DNA of 10,275 bases from Candidatus Zixiibacteriota bacterium (GTDB taxonomy: Bacteria; RBG-13-66-14; B26-G2; WVWN01), in the NCBI GenBank assembly GCA_030613505.1, contig JAUWLW010000069.1, positions 1-10,275 on the forward strand, written 5' to 3'. Position 1 is the first letter of the stretch, and every line of letters begins with the position of its first letter. The notes under the pieces were generated by a model. That model worked only from the letters and a program-made list of their open reading frames with translations, made no database searches and had not been told where the DNA came from. Position numbers and translations under genes: made by a program. Shown here piece by piece: positions 1,298-10,275 of this stretch.

Positions 1298-1990
1298 TCA
1301 AAACGACCGCGCCACCCCCGCCTCGCCGAAGGGCCGGAGCTTCTTTTCCCGGTTCAGGAAAATGTCGTCGTAGTAGCCGCCTATCTCTACCCCGGCGCGG
1401 CCTATTAACTTCCAATTCGGCGCTACCGCGACCTCGAGCTCGCCGAAGGGGGCGTTCTGCCATTCCGTTTTATCTTCGGCAAACGTCCCGTACGTGTCGC
1501 TGAAGTAATAGAGGAGGCGGCCGCGGTCGCCGGCGCGGAACGAAACCGGTCCGAAAAGGCGTCTCCCGACGGAGGCGTCATAGCCGACGCGGAGCCACGG
1601 TAAGTATTGGTGCGTTACCACCGGGTAGTACGGCGCCGGGTACTGGAGCTTGACGACGCCCAGGCCCGCGACCGGCCTGGCGACGAGCTCCCAGCCGCCG
1701 GGCGACATCTTCCGGTTATACCCATACTCCAATATCGGCTCGAAGATGTTGTCGTCGCCCGGGTAGCCGTAGATTTGGAGGCGGAAGAGGTGGTTATTCA
1801 ACTCCCCTACGCCGTAAGTTATCTCTCCCCGTAACCCGGCCTCCTCGTAGAAGTAGGGGTAGTAGTAATCGGTGGCGTTGAAGCGGAAAAGGCCCAGGGA
1901 AAAGGATAATTCAGCCGCGGATATTGCCGAAGCGGCAAAGCAAAATAACGCGACGGCGTTTACAAAGACTCTATATAAATATGGTTTCAT
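1298..1990 (-). CDS. Hypothetical secreted protein, probable outer-membrane beta-barrel
   Basis: I do not recognise a named family. The 230-residue product begins with a clear Sec signal peptide: a basic start (K2, R7), a hydrophobic core and a likely cut after AISA (about residue 25). The mature ~205 residues are rich in Tyr, Phe, Gly and Arg, with many short alternating hydrophobic/polar stretches typical of beta-strands. The chain ends in ...VARSF, and a C-terminal phenylalanine is a hallmark of outer-membrane barrels recognised by BamA. Size suggests 8-10 strands. The ATG at 1990 is preceded by CTCCCTTTAA with no Shine-Dalgarno match, so translation initiation is weak or atypical. It is convergent with the aminotransferase gene and lies 91 bases downstream of the lipoprotein gene on the same strand. 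Its 5' end is AT-richer than most of the window. Barrel assignment is inference; the signal peptide is clear. Confidence 0.75.
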   Translation of the reverse strand: MKPYLYRVFVNAVALFCFAASAISAAELSFSLGLFRFNATDYYYPYFYEEAGLRGEITYGVGELNNHLFRLQIYGYPGDDNIFEPILEYGYNRKMSPGGWELVARPVAGLGVVKLQYPAPYYPVVTHQYLPWLRVGYDASVGRRLFGPVSFRAGDRGRLLYYFSDTYGTFAEDKTEWQNAPFGELEVAVAPNWKLIGRAGVEIGGYYDDIFLNREKKLRPFGEAGVARSF

Positions 1991-2029
1991 TTAAAGGGAG
2001 CGTCGTATAGGACAGGGCGTTGTTAGTAA

Positions 2030-2053
2030 GGTAAATAAAAACGCGGCTTCGCG
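2030..2053 (-). terminator. Weak terminator-like hairpin after the lipoprotein gene
   Basis: Read on the minus strand, a short CGCG-AAGC-CGCG hairpin (2053 to 2042) is followed by TTTTTA and more T/A. It lies about 28 bases past the stop codon of the lipoprotein gene and upstream of the barrel gene. The stem has only four pairs, so termination would be partial at best. Confidence 0.3.
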
Positions 2054-2081
2054 GGCGGACATTATGAATAAGTTCGCATCG

Positions 2082-3134
2082 TCATTCGATTAGATAATAC
2101 AGGGAATAAGTACCGCCTTCGTTTCGGGCGGCCATCCAGTATTTTTTCCCTTCTTCTTCGAAAGTTACTTGTTCGGGAGCGCCGATTTCTATAGGGAGTG
2201 TTCCGAGATGGAATTCGCCGTTATCACAAATTACGTGAGTTTGCTGCCCCAACGCTATCCCGTAATTATAACGGCGGAACGCCGTACAATTAAACGCCGA
2301 GGACAAAACGTACGGCCCGGGCGGCGCGAAGAAAGGAAGTACGTAAACTCCGCCGCCGGCGGGGGCTAAGTCTCGTAGTAATATCGCGCTGTAGTACATT
2401 TCCCCGAAATTAATCGTACAGGCGAAAAATATACCGCCTTCCGTCGGCGCCGCATCGCTAATACCGGATAAGGTAAAACCTTTCGGGAGGTCCGGGTATT
2501 CTTTGACCCATTCTACGCCGTTAAAAACCCAAATAAAATCCCCTGCGGGCCACGCGAAAATGAGGCCCGACGGCGCCGCGCCAACGGAGTTTACATCCGG
2601 TAACTCGTACCGCTCGGACCAATTCCCGTAGTCGTAACGGTAAATCCCGTCCAACGTCGTAACCCAAAAAGAGCTTTCGCTGGTCGCGGCTACCGAGAAA
2701 AAAGGTGCCTTAGTAGGTACGTCGCGTACCCGGCCCCAACGGCCTTTTTCATTTTTCAATAATACCGCCTCGGAGTTACTGTCAATCATGGTTGCGCCAA
2801 CCGCCCACCCTATTTCCCCGGCGAAATCTATGTCGTAAAGTTCACTGTCTTTTTCTTCAACGGTATAAACCTCTTCTAACGCCGAGCCGTTCCACCTTAA
2901 TATCCTACCTTGGCTTTCGCTGGAGCTGGGCGGGAACTCGCCTACCAGCGATATTCGGCCCCTTTTGTCCGCGGCAATACTGTTTACATTTACGGCCGTC
3001 GAAGCCGCCGAAAGCCAATTAACGTTTACAGGTTCAAGAGGGGGTGCGCCGCAGCAGGTTATAAAAACCGCGACCCCGCCGGCCCATAACAGGGCCCGGG
3101 TCGCCTTCCGCCACAACCGCCTTTTACCGCCCAT
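2082..3134 (-). CDS. Putative lipoprotein with beta-propeller-like repeats
   Basis: A 350-residue protein with no family I can name. The N-terminus has a strongly basic start (K4, R5, R6, R9, K10, R13), a hydrophobic stretch (LLWAGGVAVFI) and a Cys pair C27-C28 followed by GAPP. This resembles a lipoprotein signal, although the lipobox (ITC-C) is imperfect. The rest carries degenerate repeats of about 45-50 residues of the type 'sva....g.iwv.....giyryd.gnWse.y' (for example DIDFAGEIGWAVG, SVAATSESSFWVT and SVGAAPSGLIFAW), as in kelch/two-component-regulator-type beta-propellers. It is probably anchored at the cell surface or periplasmic face. The start is well supported: AAGGGAGG at 3139-3146 lies four bases upstream of the ATG. 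GC is near 50 percent in sampled stretches, against above 70 percent in the activase gene, which may indicate separate origin or relaxed codon selection. The barrel gene follows on the same strand. Confidence 0.75.
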   Translation of the reverse strand: MGGKRRLWRKATRALLWAGGVAVFITCCGAPPLEPVNVNWLSAASTAVNVNSIAADKRGRISLVGEFPPSSSESQGRILRWNGSALEEVYTVEEKDSELYDIDFAGEIGWAVGATMIDSNSEAVLLKNEKGRWGRVRDVPTKAPFFSVAATSESSFWVTTLDGIYRYDYGNWSERYELPDVNSVGAAPSGLIFAWPAGDFIWVFNGVEWVKEYPDLPKGFTLSGISDAAPTEGGIFFACTINFGEMYYSAILLRDLAPAGGGVYVLPFFAPPGPYVLSSAFNCTAFRRYNYGIALGQQTHVICDNGEFHLGTLPIEIGAPEQVTFEEEGKKYWMAARNEGGTYSLYYLIE

Positions 3135-3150
3135 AGGGCCTCCCTTACGC

Positions 3151-3182
3151 GTATAGTATGCAGCCGGTTTTGCTTAAAGCAA
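3151..3182 (-). promoter_or_regulatory. Possible promoter and operator-like palindrome upstream of the lipoprotein gene
   Basis: On the minus strand, TTGCTT (a -35-like element) lies 16-18 bases before CATACT/TACTAT (a -10-like element), just upstream of the Shine-Dalgarno. The -35 overlaps a 13-base palindrome TTGCTTAAAGCAA at 3170-3182, which could be a repressor site. A second -10-like TATACT (3211 to 3206) lies further upstream without a good -35. Consensus matches are moderate. Confidence 0.3.
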
Positions 3183-3231
3183 GGGCCTGAGAAGGCCACT
3201 TTATTAGTATAAGAACCTTGTTTAACGTTAC

Positions 3232-3270
3232 CTACCCGCCGCCAGCGCGACATCGAGGCGCTGGCGGGCC
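3232..3270. repeat. Dispersed copy (3) of the activase 3' tail
   Basis: Bases 3241-3270 match 29 of 30 bases of the activase 3' end at 6111-6140. The match continues, with a one-base deletion, to the position of the activase stop codon. Read on the minus strand it would encode ARQRLDVALAAG, against ARQRLEVALAAK in the gene. The core folds as a ten-pair hairpin (CCGCCAGCGC 3239-3248 with GCGCTGGCGG 3258-3267). It is joined directly to the palindrome at 3275-3301. No longer gene fragment surrounds it, so it is not simply the remains of a second full activase gene here. Confidence 0.85.
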
Positions 3271-3274
3271 TTTC

Positions 3275-3301
3275 GTAGGGGCCGACCTTTAGGTCGGCCC
3301 G
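3275..3301 (+). repeat. Palindromic intergenic repeat, copy R1
   Basis: GTAGGGGCCGACCTTTAGG... forms a perfect ten-pair inverted repeat (3279-3288 with 3291-3300) around a two-base centre. It is nearly identical to 5958-5984 and related to the copies at 5562-5588, 5862-5883 and 6018-6043. With the tail copy in front (3241-3270) it makes a composite unit that recurs at 5921-5984. Confidence 0.85.
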
Positions 3302-3311
3302 AGCGCGCGGA

Positions 3312-3331
3312 CAAGGGCCTTAAGGCCCTTG
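3312..3331. repeat. Perfect 20-base palindrome CAAGGGCCTTAAGGCCCTTG
   Basis: Both halves are exact reverse complements. It follows R1 after a CGAGCGCGCGGA spacer and ends 23 bases before the stop codon of the minus-strand membrane-protein gene at 3355. The spacer and left half recur in decayed form after R2 (about 5585-5611), so it is part of a larger repeat and not a chance palindrome. Neither side has a T run, so it is not a typical intrinsic terminator. Confidence 0.75.
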
Positions 3332-3354
3332 CCTTTCCGCCGAAGAGCCACCAG

Positions 3355-3873
3355 CTACCCGTACCCCATCGCGCCCCAGTCGACGGCGACGCGCTGTCGG
3401 TCGTTGGGGTCTATCTTGACGGCGACCGTCTCGCCCGGCTGTATATGGGGCACGGCGTAGCGCGGCACGACGGTATCGAACGCCACGACGTAGGGTGAGC
3501 CGAAGCCGTCTTCCACCTCCAGCGTCAGCGAGAGCAGCGGTTGGTCGTTGACGGTAACGGTACCCCCCCCGCTCGGGCCGCCCAGGCTCAGGACCGTCGC
3601 GCGGCCCGGGCGGCCTACGGCGCGGAGCTTGGCCCGGGCGCTCATCCCCTTGAACACGTCGAACACGGGCCTCAGGAGGAAATACATGCCGGTCAGGAAC
3701 ATCCCGGCGGCCGAGACGACCGCCGCCACCTGGACGGCGTACGTCGCCATTATGGCCTCGTACCTCGCCTCCCCCAATAGCTTGGGCGCCCATTCCACCG
3801 ACGACTGCCAGAGGATGATGGGCACCCAGGCGACGAAGACGAGCAACATACCGGTGCCGAATTTGCTGCGCAT
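3355..3873 (-). CDS. Small two-helix membrane protein with a C-terminal soluble beta-rich domain
   Basis: With the start at 3873 the protein has 172 residues. Two predicted membrane helices (about 7-24 and 45-67) form an N-terminal hairpin. They are followed by a soluble domain at about 86-166 containing GRPGRATVLSL, TVTVNDQPLLSLTLEV, and PGETVAVKIDPNDRQRVAVDW. This pattern, 'G.pa.AtVl...vN..P...l.leV....PY.v...PG..v.VkiDP.....a.dW', resembles the DUF3592-like/OB-like domains found in many bacterial two-helix membrane proteins. No catalytic residues are apparent and the function is unknown. The frame stays open to an ATG at 3936, but that start adds 21 Pro/Arg-rich residues and lacks a good ribosome site; AAGGAG five bases before 3873 decides the start. 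It lies 121 bases after fetB on the same strand and may be co-transcribed. The repeat block begins just past its stop. Confidence 0.8.
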   Translation of the reverse strand: MRSKFGTGMLLVFVAWVPIILWQSSVEWAPKLLGEARYEAIMATYAVQVAAVVSAAGMFLTGMYFLLRPVFDVFKGMSARAKLRAVGRPGRATVLSLGGPSGGGTVTVNDQPLLSLTLEVEDGFGSPYVVAFDTVVPRYAVPHIQPGETVAVKIDPNDRQRVAVDWGAMGYG

Positions 3874-3878
3874 GGCGG

Positions 3879-3884
3879 CTCCTT
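3879..3884 (-). promoter_or_regulatory. Shine-Dalgarno AAGGAG that sets the start at 3873
   Basis: AAGGAG on the minus strand lies five bases upstream of the ATG at 3873-3871. It favours this internal methionine over the in-frame ATG at 3936. Confidence 0.75.
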
Positions 3885-3904
3885 GGCGAATAGGATTTGG
3901 CGAA

Positions 3905-3919
3905 CGCGGCCTGGCCGCG
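3905..3919. repeat. Short inverted repeat CGCGGCCTGGCCGCG
   Basis: Seven-base perfect arms around a central T, in the 121-base gap between fetB and the small membrane-protein gene. It could be a hairpin or a binding site. It has no T run and is not obviously related to the other repeats in the window. In GC-rich DNA such short palindromes can arise by chance. Confidence 0.35.
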
Positions 3920-3994
3920 GCGGAAGGAATTTTCAAGTTAACCCAAAGAAGTACCGCCCCCGGCTCGAGCCCCCTCGCTTAGCAGGAGGCTTTT

Positions 3995-4780
3995 TTACAC
4001 TAAGCCGGCGCGGAGTTGATGAGCGGGGGTGAAGAACGCGCGGCTGTACCAGATCACGGCGGCGATCGTGCTGGCCGCGGCGGCGGCGGCGATCATGTAG
4101 ACGATCACGATCTGGTAGAGCACCGCGGCCGTGGGGGCGCCCCCCGCGAGTATCATACCGGTCATCGCGCCCGGAATTTGCACGATCCCAACCGTCATCA
4201 TCATATTGATGGTGGGGATCAACGCCATCTTGACGGCGTGCCGGACGTACGGCCGTGCCGCCAGTCGCGAGGTGGCCCCCGCCGCCAGCGCCGCTTCCAG
4301 CCGCTCGGCGTGCTCGCGAGCGGAAGTGGCGAACGTCGCCATCCCGAGCGAAGCGCCGTTCATAGAGGCGTTTATGATCATCCCGGCGAGCGGTATCAAA
4401 TACCGCGGATTGTACCACGGCTCGACGCGAACAATCACGCCGAAGAGGATCATAATAACGAGGACGGAGCCGAGCAACACCGCCGCCGTCGCGATGATCA
4501 CCGTCCGGCCGACGCCTCGACCCACCCGCCGCGCGCCGTGCCAACCCGCCACCGCGACCATAGCCGCGATCGCCAACAGAACCAAATACCATCTGTCCAG
4601 GCCGAAGATCCACTTGAGGAGGTAACCGACCGCTATAAGCTGCACGAACGTGCGGACGGTCCCCACGAGGAGAGTTTTCTCCAAAAAAAGGCGGTTCAAC
4701 GCGGAGACGACGGCTACGATGACGACGAAGACGAGCGCAATCGCGACGTCGGGCAACGTCAGGTCGACGAAGCCCTCCAT
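3995..4780 (-). CDS. fetB: FetB-type ABC transporter permease (UPF0014 family), likely iron export
   Basis: An inner-membrane permease of 261 residues, matching the usual ~260 of the FetB/YbbM (UPF0014) family. In E. coli FetB works with FetA to export iron and relieve iron or oxidative stress. About seven hydrophobic segments are visible (near 11-28, 37-58, 63-80, 93-118, 126-147, 185-212 and 216-248). Family signatures are NPRYLIPLAGMIINASMNG (124-142), the cytoplasmic coupling loop EAALAAGATS (162-171), and MMTVGIVQIPGAMTGMILAGG (194-214). The start at 4780 shares one base with the fetA stop (TGATG) and has GAGGGGG eight bases upstream, indicating translational coupling. Looks intact. The family assignment is strong, but the substrate in this organism is inferred from the E. 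coli homologue and other metals or substrates are possible. Confidence 0.9.
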   Translation of the reverse strand: MEGFVDLTLPDVAIALVFVVIVAVVSALNRLFLEKTLLVGTVRTFVQLIAVGYLLKWIFGLDRWYLVLLAIAAMVAVAGWHGARRVGRGVGRTVIIATAAVLLGSVLVIMILFGVIVRVEPWYNPRYLIPLAGMIINASMNGASLGMATFATSAREHAERLEAALAAGATSRLAARPYVRHAVKMALIPTINMMMTVGIVQIPGAMTGMILAGGAPTAAVLYQIVIVYMIAAAAAASTIAAVIWYSRAFFTPAHQLRAGLV

Positions 4781-5520
4781 CAGTCGAGCCCCCTCACGAA
4801 CTCCCGCGTGACTTCAACTTGCGGCCTCTCCAGGATCCGACGCGGCGTCCCCTCCTCCGCGACGCCTCCCGCCGCCAACACGACGATCCGGTCCAGCGCC
4901 CGCAGCTTCGGGATCTCATGCGTGACGTGGAGGAGCGTCATACCGTCTTCCTCCACGCGACGGTAGAGCCTCTCCAGCACCGCCCTCGCCGTCGGCGGTT
5001 CCAGCGAGGCCGTCGTCTCGTCGAGCATGAGGATTTGCGGCCGGAGAGCCAACGCCCGGGCAAGGCACACGCGCTGCTGCTCGCCGACGGAGAGCGCCGC
5101 CACCGGACGGTCGAGCCCCACGTCGGGAAGGGCCACCTCCTCCAGGAGCGCCGACAGCCCCTCCTCGCCGCCGCCGTTGCCGGCGGCTTGCAACCCGAAC
5201 AACAAGTTATCGCGGACCGTCTCGCCGAAGAGGAAAGGTTTTTGCGGCACGAGCTGCGCGCCGCGCCGCAGCGACAATACCTCCCGGTCGCGGACGTCCT
5301 CGCGGTCCACGAGGACGCGGCCGGCGTCGACATCCAGGAGCCGGTTGATCAGTTTAAGCAGCGTGGTCTTGCCGCAACCGGAGGGGCCGACGATCCCGAG
5401 CCGCTCGGCCCGGCCTACGACGACGTTCAGGCCGGCGAAGACCTGGGACGCGTGGCCTTTCGCGCCGTCGCCGGTACGCAGCGTCTTGTAGACGTCCTCG
5501 CATTGGACCATCGGCTCCAT
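4780..5520 (-). CDS. fetA: FetA-type ABC transporter ATP-binding protein, partner of FetB
   Basis: A cytoplasmic ATPase of 246 residues that powers the FetB permease encoded immediately downstream. All ABC motifs are present: Walker A GPSGCGKTT (45-53), Q-loop Q93 in VPQKPFLF, signature LSVGEQQ (143-149), Walker B ILMLDE (163-168), a D-loop-like SLEP (172-175) and the switch histidine H201 in HVTHE. The stretch after Walker B reads DETTASLEP instead of the common DEPTSALDP, which FetA-like proteins tolerate. Assignment to FetA over other ABC families rests on the adjacent, overlapping fetB. The ATG at 5520 has no Shine-Dalgarno. A -10-like TATTAT ends seven bases upstream, so the mRNA could be nearly leaderless. 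An internal ATG at 5511 preceded by GGAG is an alternative start. Confidence 0.9.
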   Translation of the reverse strand: MEPMVQCEDVYKTLRTGDGAKGHASQVFAGLNVVVGRAERLGIVGPSGCGKTTLLKLINRLLDVDAGRVLVDREDVRDREVLSLRRGAQLVPQKPFLFGETVRDNLLFGLQAAGNGGGEEGLSALLEEVALPDVGLDRPVAALSVGEQQRVCLARALALRPQILMLDETTASLEPPTARAVLERLYRRVEEDGMTLLHVTHEIPKLRALDRIVVLAAGGVAEEGTPRRILERPQVEVTREFVRGLD

Positions 5521-5559: not shown

Positions 5560-5561
5560 AC

Positions 5562-5588
5562 GTAGGGACCGACCTTTAGCACGAGCCG
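5562..5588 (+). repeat. Palindromic intergenic repeat, decayed copy R2
   Basis: The first 18 bases match R1 at 17 positions (GTAGGG[A/G]CCGACCTTTAG). The right arm of the palindrome is then missing, and the sequence rejoins the R1 flank (CGAG.CGCG.GG..ACRAGGGCC.TAAG) through about 5611. The stop codon of the HicB-like gene (5607-5609) falls inside this repeat-derived sequence. Confidence 0.65.
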
Positions 5589-5606
5589 CGCGGGGGGACG
5601 AGGGCC

Positions 5607-5816
5607 CTAAGAACGAATAGGAAAACGCCGCCTTATCGGCGGCGGAACGGGTTCGGCGTGTTTCTCGAGGCTCGCGAGAAATCCGGCGATGGCGTCCTTA
5701 ATATTGGCCACGGCCTCCTCGCGCATCGCGCCCTGGGAAACGCAACCCGGAAGGGCCGGCGCCTCCGCGACGAAGACGCCGTCTTCGTCTTGCTCGACGA
5801 TTATACGATATTTCAT
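5607..5816 (-). CDS. HicB-like antitoxin-family protein, orphan
   Basis: A 69-residue protein with the HicB N-terminal pattern: MKYRIIVEQDEDGVFVAEAP (1-20), then ALPGCVSQGAMREEAVANIKDAI (21-43), closely matching the partial-RNase-H-like fold of the HicB/COG1598 family. Classical HicB proteins neutralise the HicA mRNA interferase and often have a C-terminal DNA-binding domain. Here the chain ends in a short Pro/Arg-rich tail (PVPPPIRRRFPIRS) with no such domain. No HicA-like frame (about 60 residues with a double-stranded RNA-binding-like fold and catalytic His) is visible on either side, so this is a solo member or a remnant of a toxin-antitoxin pair. The ATG at 5816 has no Shine-Dalgarno and lies eight bases past a perfect TATAAT. 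The stop codon lies within repeat-derived sequence, so the last residues may be recently altered. Confidence 0.85.
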   Translation of the reverse strand: MKYRIIVEQDEDGVFVAEAPALPGCVSQGAMREEAVANIKDAIAGFLASLEKHAEPVPPPIRRRFPIRS

Positions 5817-5853: not shown

Positions 5854-5883
5854 TATAAAAAGGCCGCACCTGGAGGTCCAGCC
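5849..5883. repeat. AACAATAT block plus decayed palindrome, copy R3
   Basis: AACAATATAAAA (5849-5860) followed by GGCCGCACCTGGAGGT parallels AACAATATGAAAA (5997-6009) and GGCCGCACCTGAAGGT (6018-6033). The palindromic arms at 5862-5871 and 5874-5883 pair imperfectly. Compared with the second unit, about 30 bases are missing after the palindrome and 8 before it. This marks the left end of a local duplication. Confidence 0.65.
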
Positions 5884-5953
5884 GGGCGTCGGGCGTACAA
5901 CGGTGCGCCGCTACTTCGCGGCCAGCGCGACCTCGAGGCGCTGGCGTGCCTGG
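5881..5953. repeat. Duplicate copy (1) of the activase 3' tail
   Basis: This segment matches 6071-6143 at 71 of 73 bases at a constant offset of 190 bases; the differences are at 5920 and 5947. On the minus strand it encodes QARQRLEVALAAK followed by TAG, exactly as the true gene end does, plus the 3' flank. It carries no start codon or upstream coding sequence of the activase. It joins directly to the palindrome at 5958-5984, with the same TTTCGTAGGGG junction as the copy at 3232-3301. Confidence 0.92.
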
Positions 5954-5957
5954 TTTC

Positions 5958-5984
5958 GTAGGGGACGACCTTTAGGTCGGCCCG
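5958..5984 (+). repeat. Palindromic intergenic repeat, copy R4
   Basis: GTAGGGGACGACCTTTAGG... differs from R1 at one base. The ten-base arms (5962-5971 and 5974-5983) pair with one mismatch. Together with the tail copy to its left, bases 5921-5984 align with 3241-3301 at 58 of 61 positions with one three-base gap. Confidence 0.85.
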
Positions 5985-5996
5985 CCATATTCGTTT

Positions 5997-6043
5997 AACA
6001 ATATGAAAACCGATGGTGGCCGCACCTGAAGGTACGGCCCTAC
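5997..6043 (-). repeat. AACAATAT block plus palindrome, copy R5 (reverse orientation)
   Basis: Read on the minus strand, GTAGGGCCGTACCTTCAGG at 6043-6025 is the same repeat family in the opposite orientation. The arms at 6018-6027 and 6030-6039 pair over ten positions with one G-U type mismatch. It lies 58 bases after the activase stop. As RNA from the activase transcript it would be a stable hairpin, followed some 15 bases later by TTTTCATATT, so weak termination is possible but not convincing. Confidence 0.7.
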
Positions 6044-6070
6044 GATAAAACCCTCAATCGCCACACGGCC

Positions 6071-6143
6071 GCCGGGCGTCGGGCGTACAACGGTGCGCCG
6101 CTACTTCGCCGCCAGCGCGACCTCGAGGCGCTGGCGGGCCTGG
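6071..6143. repeat. Parental or resident copy (2) of the tail repeat, overlapping the activase 3' end
   Basis: This is the member of the three-copy repeat that lies in a real gene: the last 13 activase codons, its TAG stop and 30 bases of 3' flank. The core folds as a ten-pair hairpin (6109-6118 with 6128-6137), so the end of the coding region is itself palindromic. Confidence 0.9.
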
Positions 6144-9100
6144 TGGATGAAGGCCTCGACGCGGGTGCGGGTGGTGGCGGACTCCAGGCCGTCGTACGAC
6201 ATGTTCAATATGGGGATGTTGTCGTAGTCGCCCTGCACGCGCTTGAGTAGCGCCGAGACGATGACGCCCGGCATGCACGTGAACGGCATCAGGTTGGCGA
6301 CGCCGTGCAGGCCGTGCTCGGCGTACTCCGCGGCCTTCCCCACCGACAGGATAGCCTCCCCCTCGAACGTGTCGTGCACGTACCGCGAGCCCATCTTGAT
6401 GGTCTCGTCGACCTCGGGCTCGGGCCAGTTGCGCGCCAGGCCGTCGAAGAGCGACGTTATCTTGGCGTAGTCGGCCTTCTGGATTTTTTGCGTGACGTAG
6501 CTCAGCGCGAGGCGCGAGTAGTCGCCGCGGATCTTGCAGTCGCGGATGCGCGTCCAGTTGGTATACCAGAACCACTCGGAGATGGTCGGCATGTAGACCT
6601 CGCCGCCCAGCGCCTCCACCTGCTCGATGAAATGGTTATTGGAGAAGCGGTTGGAGCGGACGTAGATCTCGCCGACGATGCCGATGCGGGGCTTAGGCTC
6701 GTCGGTCGTGGCGACGCTCGGCCACGCCTCGACCGCCTCCCGGCATATCGCCAGGATGGCATCCAGCGTACCCTCCGTCAATATGCTATCCTCGACGCGT
6801 TTGACGTATTCCCAGTAGAGCTCGTGCGCGGCGCCGGCCTCGAGCTCGTAGGGCCGCGTCTGGAAGAGCAACTTCTCCAGCATGTCGATGGCGACGATGC
6901 CCTGCCACGCCCGCCGCGTGAACTCGTTGCCGACGATGCCGAGGTCGTTGTACAGCGTCTTGCCCTGGTTGGGGCTGAAGACCGGCACGTCGCCCATGCC
7001 CAGCTCGGCCAGGACGATGCGGTGGAGCATGTTGTACTGGCCGAAGCGGCAGGGCCCGGACCCCGCGGGCATGAAGAATATGGCGCGCTCCGGGTCGAAG
7101 TCGTCCCGCTTGGCGTACTTCACCATGTCGCCGGTGGTAACGATGCAGGGATAGCACTCCTTGCCGGTGGTGAACTTGCGGCCCCAGACGAGAGTCTCGT
7201 CGTCAGGCTCGTCCATCATCACCGCCGGCACGCCCACCGCCTCGAACGCCGCGCGGATGGCGTAGGCGTGGTCGCACATGTACGGTATGTAGACCTTGCG
7301 CTTGTGGTCCTCCGCCGCCAGCGAGAGGCGCTTGATCTCGACCGTGGCCGGTACCTTGTCGCGGAAGTTCTTGATGCTGTCCAGGAACGCCTCCGCCCGG
7401 GTGATGGCGCCGGCGTCGGCGGAGTGCTCGTCAATCTCGAGCTGCAGGAACGGCTTACCGCCCATCTTGACGCGGAAGAACTTCAACAGGAACGAGTCCG
7501 GGCCGCAGCCGAAGTTGGTGATGTAGACGCCGTGGAGGCGCGGGTCCTTGCGCACGATCTCGACCGCGGACAGGATCTTCTGGCCGTACTTCCAGTACAT
7601 GTTGTCCCACTCGTGGGAGAGCTCTACCTCCTCCACCGGCAGGAAGTCCATCGGGATGGCGAGCGTACCTAAATCGCGGAACTTCTTGGGTATATCGAGG
7701 TTGATGCCGCGGTCGCAGGTGTTGTACGGCCGGCCTATGACGACGACGGCGTTGTCGTCCCGGCCCAGCTCCTCCAGCACCTGGATGCCGCGGGTCTTTA
7801 CGTGGGCGTAGAACTCGTTCTGCGCGCGCTTGGCCGCCTTGAACGCCCGGCGGACGTCGCCCTTCTTCACGCCCAGCGGCTTGAGGGCGTCGTGGAGCGC
7901 GTTCACCAGGGCCGCGTCGCCCCGCTCGAAGAAGAGCTTCGCCACCAGAACCGGCATCTCCTTGGCCTCTAAATCGAGGGCCGACGAGATGACGTACGGC
8001 GCCGTCTGGACGTACGGGCAGGTGAACGACTTGTCGGTGAGCGCGTTCTGCTTCTCGAGCGATATCGCGGACGGCATGAAGACGGCGTCCACGCCCTTCT
8101 TGAGCAGGTCTATGACGTGACCGTGCGCCACCTTCACCGGGAAACAGCACTCCGACGCCACGGCCTCAACGCCGTCGTGGATGATGTTCTTGTTGGTATA
8201 GTCGGAGATGACCACCTCGAAGCCCACCTCGGCCAGGAAGGTCTTGAAGAACGGCAGCATCTCTTGGACGAAGAGGGCGCGCGGCAGGCCGACGCGCGGC
8301 GCGCCCTCGGCCGGTTTCGCCGACGTGTAGTCGCGGCTCAGGAGCTTCTCGCGTTCGGCGAAGAGGTTGGGCAACCCCTCGCCGCGTTTGTGGACCTTCT
8401 TGCGCTCGACGTCGTACTTCTCGCACCGCGAGCCGTAGTACAGCGGCTCTTCGCCCTCCACCGTCACCACTTTTATCTCGCAGTGGTTCGAGCAATCGGC
8501 GCACTCGAACGAGCTCTGTTCGTACTTGCGAGTGGCGAGGTCCCAACTCTTGAAAGAGCTTTCGCTTTCGCCGTCCCACAGCTCGCGCGCGATCATCGCC
8601 ATGCCCCAGGCGCCGGTGACCTCGTGGTGGTCGGGGACGGTGACCGGCTTGCCGGTGACCTGCTCGAAGGCCGCGACGACGGCGTGGTTGAACGCCACGC
8701 CCCCCTGGAAGAAGATATTGTCGCCGACGCGCTTCTCCTGGACCACGCGGTTGAGGTAATTCAATACGATGGAGTAGCCCAGGCCGGCGCACAGGTCCTC
8801 GCGCGGCGCGCCCTTCTGCTGGTGGCTTATGATGTCGGTCTCCATGAAGACGGTGCAGCGCTCGCCCAGCCGGCAAGGCGCCTCCGACCCCAGCGCCAGC
8901 TCGGCGAACTCCCGCTTGATGTTGACGTCCAGGCGCTCGCTCTGCTCCTCGATGAAGGAGCCGGTCCCGGCGGCGCAAACCTTGTTCATCTCGAAGTCGA
9001 CGATGGCGCCGTTGTCGAGCGCGATGTATTTCGAGTCCTGGCCGCCTATCTCGAAGACGGTGTCGACGCCCGGGTCGATGTAGGCCGCGGCGGTGGCCTG

Positions 9101-10275
9101 CGCCGTAATCTCGTTCTTGACGACGTCCGCGCCGATGAAGTCGCCGGTGAGGTAGCGGCCGGAGCCGGTGGTCCCGACGCCCCGCACGACTACCTTGTCG
9201 GCGACCTCCGCGCCCACCTCGGCCAGGCCGCGCTTGATGGCCTCTATGGGCCGCCCCGCCGTCATCAGGTAGCACTTGGATATGATGTTGAAACTCTCGT
9301 CCATCGCGACGACGTTGGTGGAGAGCGAGCCCACGTCGACGCCCAAGAAGCAGTCTATCTTCTCGCCGTCTTTCGGGAGCGTGGCGTCGGCCTTGGGCTC
9401 GAGGTGGACGTCGCGCAGGACGAGGCGCTCCTGGCCCTGCTCCTCCTCGTGCGCCGCGGCGAGGTAGTCGTAGAAAGCTTTCGTGCCGGCGAAGGAGGTC
9501 AGCTCGTCGCGCTCCGCCGCGGCCAGGACCGCGCCGATGGCGCCCATGGAGGCGAAGTATTCGGGGATGACGAGCTCGCCGGCGTCCAGGCCCAGGACCT
9601 CGGTGAAGGCGCGGACCATGCCCTTGTTGGCCGCGACGCCGCCCATAAAGCAGTAGTCGAGGCGGAAGTCCTTGCCCTTGGCGATGGTGGCCTTGAAGTT
9701 GCGCGCCATCGCGAAGCACAGGCCGGCGACGATGTCGTAGTCCGGCGCGCCCTCCTGCTGGAGGTGGATCATGTCGGACTTGGCGAAGACGGAGCAGCGG
9801 CCCGCGATGCGCGGCGGGTGCTCGGAGCGGAGCGCCAGGTCGCCGAACTCCTCTACCGTCAGGTCGAGGCGGCTGGCCTGCTGGTCGAGGAAGGAGCCGG
9901 TCCCGGCGGCGCAGATGGTGTTCATCGCGAAGTCGCGGATGACGGTGCGGCCGGTCTTCTCGTCCTCGCCCAGGATAATCAATTTGGAGTCCTGGCCGCC
10001 GATCTCGACGACGGTGTGGACGTTCGGGTAGAGGCGGCCCACCGCGGCGGTCTGTGCGACGATCTCGTTGGCGAAGGGCGCGCCCGAAATGTCGGACGCC
10101 AGCTGGCCGCCCGAGCCGGGGACGGTCAGCGACTGGATTGGGCCGGCCGGGGGACGGCCGAGGACGTCGGCGACGCCGGCGGCGAGCGCCTTTACGGGCT
10201 GGCCTTTGTGGCGGAGGTAATGGTCCTCGACGACGTTGTACTCGACGTCGAGCAGGACCAGGTTCACGCTGATGG
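6101..10275 (-). CDS. Giant fused acyl-CoA dehydratase activase/reductase-like protein (BadF/BadG/BcrA/BcrD type), partial
   Basis: A [4Fe-4S] ATPase that in relatives injects low-potential electrons into 2-hydroxyacyl-CoA dehydratase or related double-cubane enzymes, using ATP hydrolysis. Residues are numbered from base 10267. There are two ASKHA ATPase domains: about 1-285 (IGGQDSK; ICAAGTGSF with C119; GRCSVF with C158) and about 303-565 (GVDVGSLSTN; GGQDSKY; VCAAGTGSF with C431; GERCTVF with C471). C119/C158 and C431/C471 match the cluster ligands of activases. A zinc- or Fe-S-type motif follows (C589, C592, C596, C615). Next comes a DUF2229-like domain from about 655 (GLPRALF, C707-C708). 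The last region, from about 840, resembles dehydratase D-component-like proteins, with conserved C851, C921, C998, C1038, C1041, C1073 and C1331. The usual start with the first DxG(S) loop is missing: the frame runs off the right edge, and a GTG at 10267 falls inside the first beta-strand (SVNLVLLD). No separate dehydratase subunits are visible here, so the substrate is unknown. Confidence 0.92.
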   Translation of the reverse strand, partial: ISVNLVLLDVEYNVVEDHYLRHKGQPVKALAAGVADVLGRPPAGPIQSLTVPGSGGQLASDISGAPFANEIVAQTAAVGRLYPNVHTVVEIGGQDSKLIILGEDEKTGRTVIRDFAMNTICAAGTGSFLDQQASRLDLTVEEFGDLALRSEHPPRIAGRCSVFAKSDMIHLQQEGAPDYDIVAGLCFAMARNFKATIAKGKDFRLDYCFMGGVAANKGMVRAFTEVLGLDAGELVIPEYFASMGAIGAVLAAAERDELTSFAGTKAFYDYLAAAHEEEQGQERLVLRDVHLEPKADATLPKDGEKIDCFLGVDVGSLSTNVVAMDESFNIISKCYLMTAGRPIEAIKRGLAEVGAEVADKVVVRGVGTTGSGRYLTGDFIGADVVKNEITAQATAAAYIDPGVDTVFEIGGQDSKYIALDNGAIVDFEMNKVCAAGTGSFIEEQSERLDVNIKREFAELALGSEAPCRLGERCTVFMETDIISHQQKGAPREDLCAGLGYSIVLNYLNRVVQEKRVGDNIFFQGGVAFNHAVVAAFEQVTGKPVTVPDHHEVTGAWGMAMIARELWDGESESSFKSWDLATRKYEQSSFECADCSNHCEIKVVTVEGEEPLYYGSRCEKYDVERKKVHKRGEGLPNLFAEREKLLSRDYTSAKPAEGAPRVGLPRALFVQEMLPFFKTFLAEVGFEVVISDYTNKNIIHDGVEAVASECCFPVKVAHGHVIDLLKKGVDAVFMPSAISLEKQNALTDKSFTCPYVQTAPYVISSALDLEAKEMPVLVAKLFFERGDAALVNALHDALKPLGVKKGDVRRAFKAAKRAQNEFYAHVKTRGIQVLEELGRDDNAVVVIGRPYNTCDRGINLDIPKKFRDLGTLAIPMDFLPVEEVELSHEWDNMYWKYGQKILSAVEIVRKDPRLHGVYITNFGCGPDSFLLKFFRVKMGGKPFLQLEIDEHSADAGAITRAEAFLDSIKNFRDKVPATVEIKRLSLAAEDHKRKVYIPYMCDHAYAIRAAFEAVGVPAVMMDEPDDETLVWGRKFTTGKECYPCIVTTGDMVKYAKRDDFDPERAIFFMPAGSGPCRFGQYNMLHRIVLAELGMGDVPVFSPNQGKTLYNDLGIVGNEFTRRAWQGIVAIDMLEKLLFQTRPYELEAGAAHELYWEYVKRVEDSILTEGTLDAILAICREAVEAWPSVATTDEPKPRIGIVGEIYVRSNRFSNNHFIEQVEALGGEVYMPTISEWFWYTNWTRIRDCKIRGDYSRLALSYVTQKIQKADYAKITSLFDGLARNWPEPEVDETIKMGSRYVHDTFEGEAILSVGKAAEYAEHGLHGVANLMPFTCMPGVIVSALLKRVQGDYDNIPILNMSYDGLESATTRTRVEAFIHQARQRLEVALAAK

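Follow-up and report, generated by a model that had tools for sequence, protein, structure and literature searches.

GTAG REPs consist of a GTAG head followed by a palindrome (PMC2817692, PMC3733652), and RAYTs cleave single-stranded DNA next to REPs, sometimes at a distance (PMC8266576). Nunvar and colleagues proposed that the freed end primes rolling-circle copying of the REP module, and reported four cases in which the 3' end of a rayt had become trapped between REPs (PMC2817692). Furthermore, Bertels and Rainey described REPINs in tandem clusters whose units take in the sequence beside them (PMC3116915). That REP arrays grow together with adjoining DNA, including rayt 3' ends, in a RAYT-linked manner is known already; what is new in the arrays described here is the repeated capture of the tails of ordinary genes.

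These arrays share with the GTAG REP/RAYT REPtrons (PMC2817692, PMC3733652, PMC8266576) the GTAG head and palindrome, the inverted pairs, the location at gene 3' ends, a rayt between two inverted REPs and an HUH/Y1 transposase of the NF047646 family; they differ in belonging to an uncultivated lineage, in their low copy number (~35) and in having doublets between duplicated gene tails. The REPIN clusters of Pseudomonas fluorescens SBW25 (PMC3116915) also show doublets tandemly repeated with their flanks (f1-REPIN-f2), and one cluster adjoins each RAYT, as a further likeness; however, SBW25 REPINs are nearly identical, whereas the elements of a single array here may have entirely different interiors, and they are flanked by a gene tail that carries its stop codon and sometimes the terminator. 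In the four BIMEs that hold a rayt 3' end (PMC2817692) a gene 3' end likewise becomes the inter-REP segment, but the tails captured here are those of ordinary host genes; one genome has five such arrays and a sister species about three. The arrays fit the published picture (PMC2817692, PMC3116915), the captured segments here being tails of ordinary genes.

The window, that is, the whole stretch of DNA analysed, is an entire contig of 10,275 bases from a 2.86-Mb draft genome of Candidatus Zixiibacteriota. The features of its activase locus are the following:

6101-10267, minus strand: CoA-enzyme-activase-like gene whose tail was captured (two BcrAD_BadFG domains and DUF2229 in the Pfam scan)
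6071-6144, minus strand: C, the original activase gene tail, first arm of a 74-bp direct repeat
5957-6044, no strand assigned: REP doublet (BIME/REPIN), a pair of REPs in inverted orientation around an AT-rich spacer
6017-6044, minus strand: left-end REP of the pair, GTAGGGCCGTACCTTCAGGTGCGGCC on that strand, of the type found before the RAYT on C95
5957-5984, plus strand: right-end REP of the pair, GTAGGGGACGACCTTTAGGTCGGCCC
5881-5954, minus strand: B, duplicate of the activase tail and 3' flank, across the doublet from the gene
5860-5883, minus strand: degenerate second left-end REP after B (a weak match at 5862-5883 and reading of the sequence)

On the activase strand, the order is the C tail, a REP, the AT-rich spacer, an inverted REP, GAAA, the B tail copy and the decayed REP. 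C comprises the last ~44 nt of the coding sequence, with the stop at 6101-6103, and ~30 nt of 3' flank. B is identical to C at 72 of 74 positions (97%), and both differences in the coding part are synonymous. The limits given in the preliminary description were too narrow, since B makes up a whole arm of the 74-bp direct repeat (5881-5954, 6071-6144): this local array has two tail repeats, C and B, and a pair of inverted REPs between the gene tail and its copy. Read from its sequence, the degenerate REP at 5860-5883 suggests the remnant of a second, decayed unit.

The palindrome had been proposed to be REP-like, and it is: it has the form GTAGGG-N5-CCT-NN-AGG-N5-CC, a 5' GTAG followed by a palindrome as in GTAG REPs, and 35 sites in the genome match the strict pattern (none with the reversed-pattern control), or 50 places by similarity at a loose E-value. 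The REP half of the aligned stretch (26 bases) matches twice in the window with at most three mismatches, compared with no match in 200 shuffles. The copies inspected in detail, a subset of all copies, are intergenic. Inverted doublets with a short spacer, the REPIN or BIME arrangement, number seven in this genome and six in the sister genome G001, with none for the reversed-pattern control; the activase doublet at 5957-6044 is 77% identical to the C95 doublets. A search for a RAYT, also suggested beforehand, found an intact gene: of four proteins above the Y1_Tnp cut-off, the one on C95 is a RAYT according to NCBIfam (NF047646, 94.5 bits, cut-off 80), and an alignment shows conserved HxH and Tyr motifs. 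This rayt (79222-79737) is bracketed by inverted cognate REPs, at C95:79142 and 79776, of the same type as the window REPs, and also lies between two copies of the tail of its upstream gene. On this sequence evidence, the C95 RAYT is the putative cognate transposase of the window REPs and the most likely driver.

Four other genes of this genome have arrays with the same layout as that of the activase; gene names beyond the Pfam-scanned genes of the window are our reading of the translations:

fumarase alpha: two tails and two doublets
K+-channel-like gene: three tails, one RAYT element and one doublet
small exported protein: four tails and three doublets
C79 membrane protein: three tails, including a terminator hairpin, and longer spacers

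All seven tight REP doublets sit in gene-tail arrays (activase, fumarase alpha, K+-channel-like gene and small exported protein). The repeats flanking them score 43-163, against shuffle maxima of 11-14, with the exception of the outermost fumarase doublet, which is flanked by a tail on just one side and reaches a score of 10. Their length ranges from ~46 bp to more than 90 bp, unlike the fixed short target duplication of a classical IS or MITE. The units repeat together with adjacent non-REP DNA, as in tandem REPIN clusters, but are not near-identical within a cluster, and a single array can hold different spacers, or a RAYT and a doublet. Tail repeats are mostly absent at single REPs without a doublet, and 240 kb of REP-free control sequence contain two such repeats within a spacing of 350 bp; the sample comprised the stretches around search matches and this control sequence. 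Genome-wide, the activase tail hairpin occurs at three sites, all on this contig (gene tail C, copy B and a copy A described below), and searches with the other four captured tails found none outside their own arrays. By codon position, 23 differences between tail copies are synonymous and 21 are not, with no clear selection on the copies, and inspection by eye of CT cleavage sites at the array junctions showed no consistent pattern. In the C79 array (L135, 541-1201), the captured tails hold a hairpin like an intrinsic terminator, which is thus present three times.

The repeat probably arose through the growth of REP arrays at the 3' ends of genes, with a RAYT as the most likely driver; we likewise favour, to the same degree, a recurring by-product of such growth over a unique fused element. 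The array would start from a doublet of two inverted GTAG-REPs downstream of the activase gene, and as it grew the adjacent gene tail (~74 bp, with the stop codon) would be duplicated across the doublet to give tail-REP..REP-tail. The cognate RAYT, an HUH single-strand nuclease, would nick beside the REPs, and the freed end would prime copying of the neighbouring segment, which would rejoin at a REP, as earlier proposed for BIME growth. We infer both the RAYT as agent and this copying step; the arrays may reflect module copying or insertion with a long duplication.

The arrays are known from draft assemblies of uncultivated bacteria and in small numbers, five here and about three in G001. In G001, tail repeats accompany two of the six doublets, which counts against array growth; the captured tails are those of fumarase and of a hydroxyacyl-CoA-dehydrogenase-like gene (named from reading the sequence). 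Furthermore, a RAYT of G001 is bracketed by two tail copies of a small gene beside a thiolase-like gene. The fumarase junction GAA(A/G)TACGG is common to G001 and this genome, and the fumarase array is therefore older than their split, while the activase array is absent from the activase downstream regions of G001 and G003, so it is younger than the split or was lost there. G002 shows no REP doublets. The orphan RAYT of G003 is flanked by 75-bp repeats that are the tail of a multi-copy gene family, a weak support for tail capture, and the same flanking repeat is found in the related record L181. In the surroundings of 29 further RAYT loci of public genomes, searched for captured tails, long direct repeats were mostly the REPs themselves; at ~25 RAYT loci outside the genus, repeats of the REP type came with no recognisable captured tail, which also speaks against array growth. 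Separately, a gene-tail motif ending in TSLGRVKALFR and a stop (L165, 1312-1386 and ~2062-2136) is present in at least nine places in each of three genomes and often ends at GTAGGGG; it may be the common C-terminal end of a protein family. Two Y1 transposase genes are adjacent in G001 (L164, 722-1318 and 1498-1992).

A third copy of the activase tail lies 2.7 kb from the array, among other palindromes:

3230-3270, minus strand: A, ~40 nt of the activase tail with the stem CCGCCAGCGC..GCGCTGGCGG (sequence comparison)
3274-3301, plus strand: REP joined to A
3302-3335, no strand assigned: second palindrome, CAAGGGCCTTAAGGCCCTTG, into which the REP of A runs without a break
5561-5611, no strand assigned: decayed copy of the REP of A and its flank, downstream of hicB (80% over 51 nt)

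Copy A is located outside the array, ends truncated at its stop codon and shows no second REP. The compound unit formed by its REP and the second palindrome recurs downstream of hicB in G001. At the site of A, G002 has hyp3 with no REP or tail downstream, and in G001 and G003 the UPF0014 gene is missing and the activase-AT5 region contains no hyp3. The second compound palindrome, ACAAGGGNCTTNAGNCCCTTGTC, ~10 nt and then GGCTCGAGCTGAAGGTCGGCCCCTACG, is recurrent in the genus (3274-3335 and 5561-5611 in the window, L062 ~2370-2450 and ~2620-2690) and occurs several times in G001. The window also encodes a HicB-like antitoxin (5607-5816) with no HicA partner; in G001, hicB precedes a short gene that appears hicA-like, and the HicB of the window genome has a different C-terminus. 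In the stretch from the activase to the class V aminotransferase (1298-5520), the four genomes of the genus all differ in which genes they have and in what order: hyp3, ABC and UPF0014 are permuted in G002, and UPF0014 is absent in G001 and G003.

Part of the array pattern could be given by ordinary tandem duplication, in which slippage or template switching at strong palindromes copied the tail together with the doublet, without a transposase, and later deletions trimmed the ends. Slippage typically yields direct repeats of tail and element, the C79 units are alike in both tail and spacer, and two arrays apparently end in a decayed REP or in a doublet, as tandem duplication would give. However, tandem copying predicts elements that are alike, and three arrays have unlike interiors between near-identical tails (a RAYT and then a doublet; two different spacers; the type alpha-beta-alpha). 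Recombinational replacement of the interiors after slippage could explain such differences; the tails at both ends of several arrays and the rarity of such repeats in control DNA also stand against tandem duplication, which we regard as unlikely. An equally low probability is given to the reading that in this genus the insertion of a RAYT or doublet itself copies 50-150 bp of the adjacent gene tail across the element, tail-element-tail being the footprint of RAYT transposition. Still less likely is a long target duplication of 45-150 bp whenever a REP doublet or RAYT inserts, which would leave the same footprint. It would account for unlike elements between tails, including whole RAYT elements, in two species and at different genes, but IS200/IS605 relatives make no larger target duplications (PMC2817692), the repeat length varies widely, the gene tail would nearly always have to be the target, and no paired empty and filled site was found for these arrays.

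The preliminary description had instead read A and B as one composite of tail and palindrome, formed once and dispersed as a mobile unit, on account of a shared junction. A and B are indeed alike across the join: realignment of 3241-3301 with 5921-5984 gave the claimed 58 matches in 61 letters with one 3-base gap. The gene copy (6107-6141, 97% identical to A) lacks the junction, as had also been said, and shows no REP at that point because the coding sequence runs on. However, the junction of B is ..TGCCTGG followed by TTTCGTAGGGG, and that of A is ..GGGCC followed by TTTCGTAGGGG; they lie 3 nt apart, with the alignment gap exactly on the junction, and many other REP ends also contain TTTC (GAAA on the opposite strand). 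Furthermore, A equals the gene at both positions where B departs from it. These facts argue that A was not copied from the present-day B, and that a single founding composite is not required. With the tail in three places on one contig against dozens of REP sites, the composite as such was not dispersed, and the REP of A runs into a palindrome cluster of another kind. A single dispersed composite is thus very improbable, while the REP-like palindrome, the RAYT in the genome and the captured gene tail beside REPs stood. Under array growth, we infer that A is probably a displaced, truncated piece of a tail-REP unit, a displaced REP end with its tail, which would have arrived by exchange between REPs or by a second capture. 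It had also been suggested that the activase owes its C-terminus to insertion of the element into the gene, a reading that we practically discard for this genome. The activases of G001 and G003 end within coding sequence in QARQRLEVALAARK and QARQRLEVALAPRAGQGA, respectively, each followed by the stop, with no tail copies downstream; both encode the QARQRLEVAL tail without the element or copies of the hairpin, and therefore the gene donated the tail. The tail hairpin is imperfect in these sister activases and so looks incidental. What favours such an insertion is that in G003 (L063, ~885-920) a different palindrome, GGACAAGGGGCTTAAGCCCC, provides the last residues of the activase and its stop (TAA), so protein ends supplied by palindromes do occur in this genus.

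The spread of REP sequences is poorly understood. In units that carry a recognisable and datable piece of a neighbouring gene, the array records the order and the limits of its growth steps, and the arrays described here supply concrete junctions that any model of RAYT action must account for. Furthermore, the stop codons and terminators of ordinary genes can be duplicated by REP growth.
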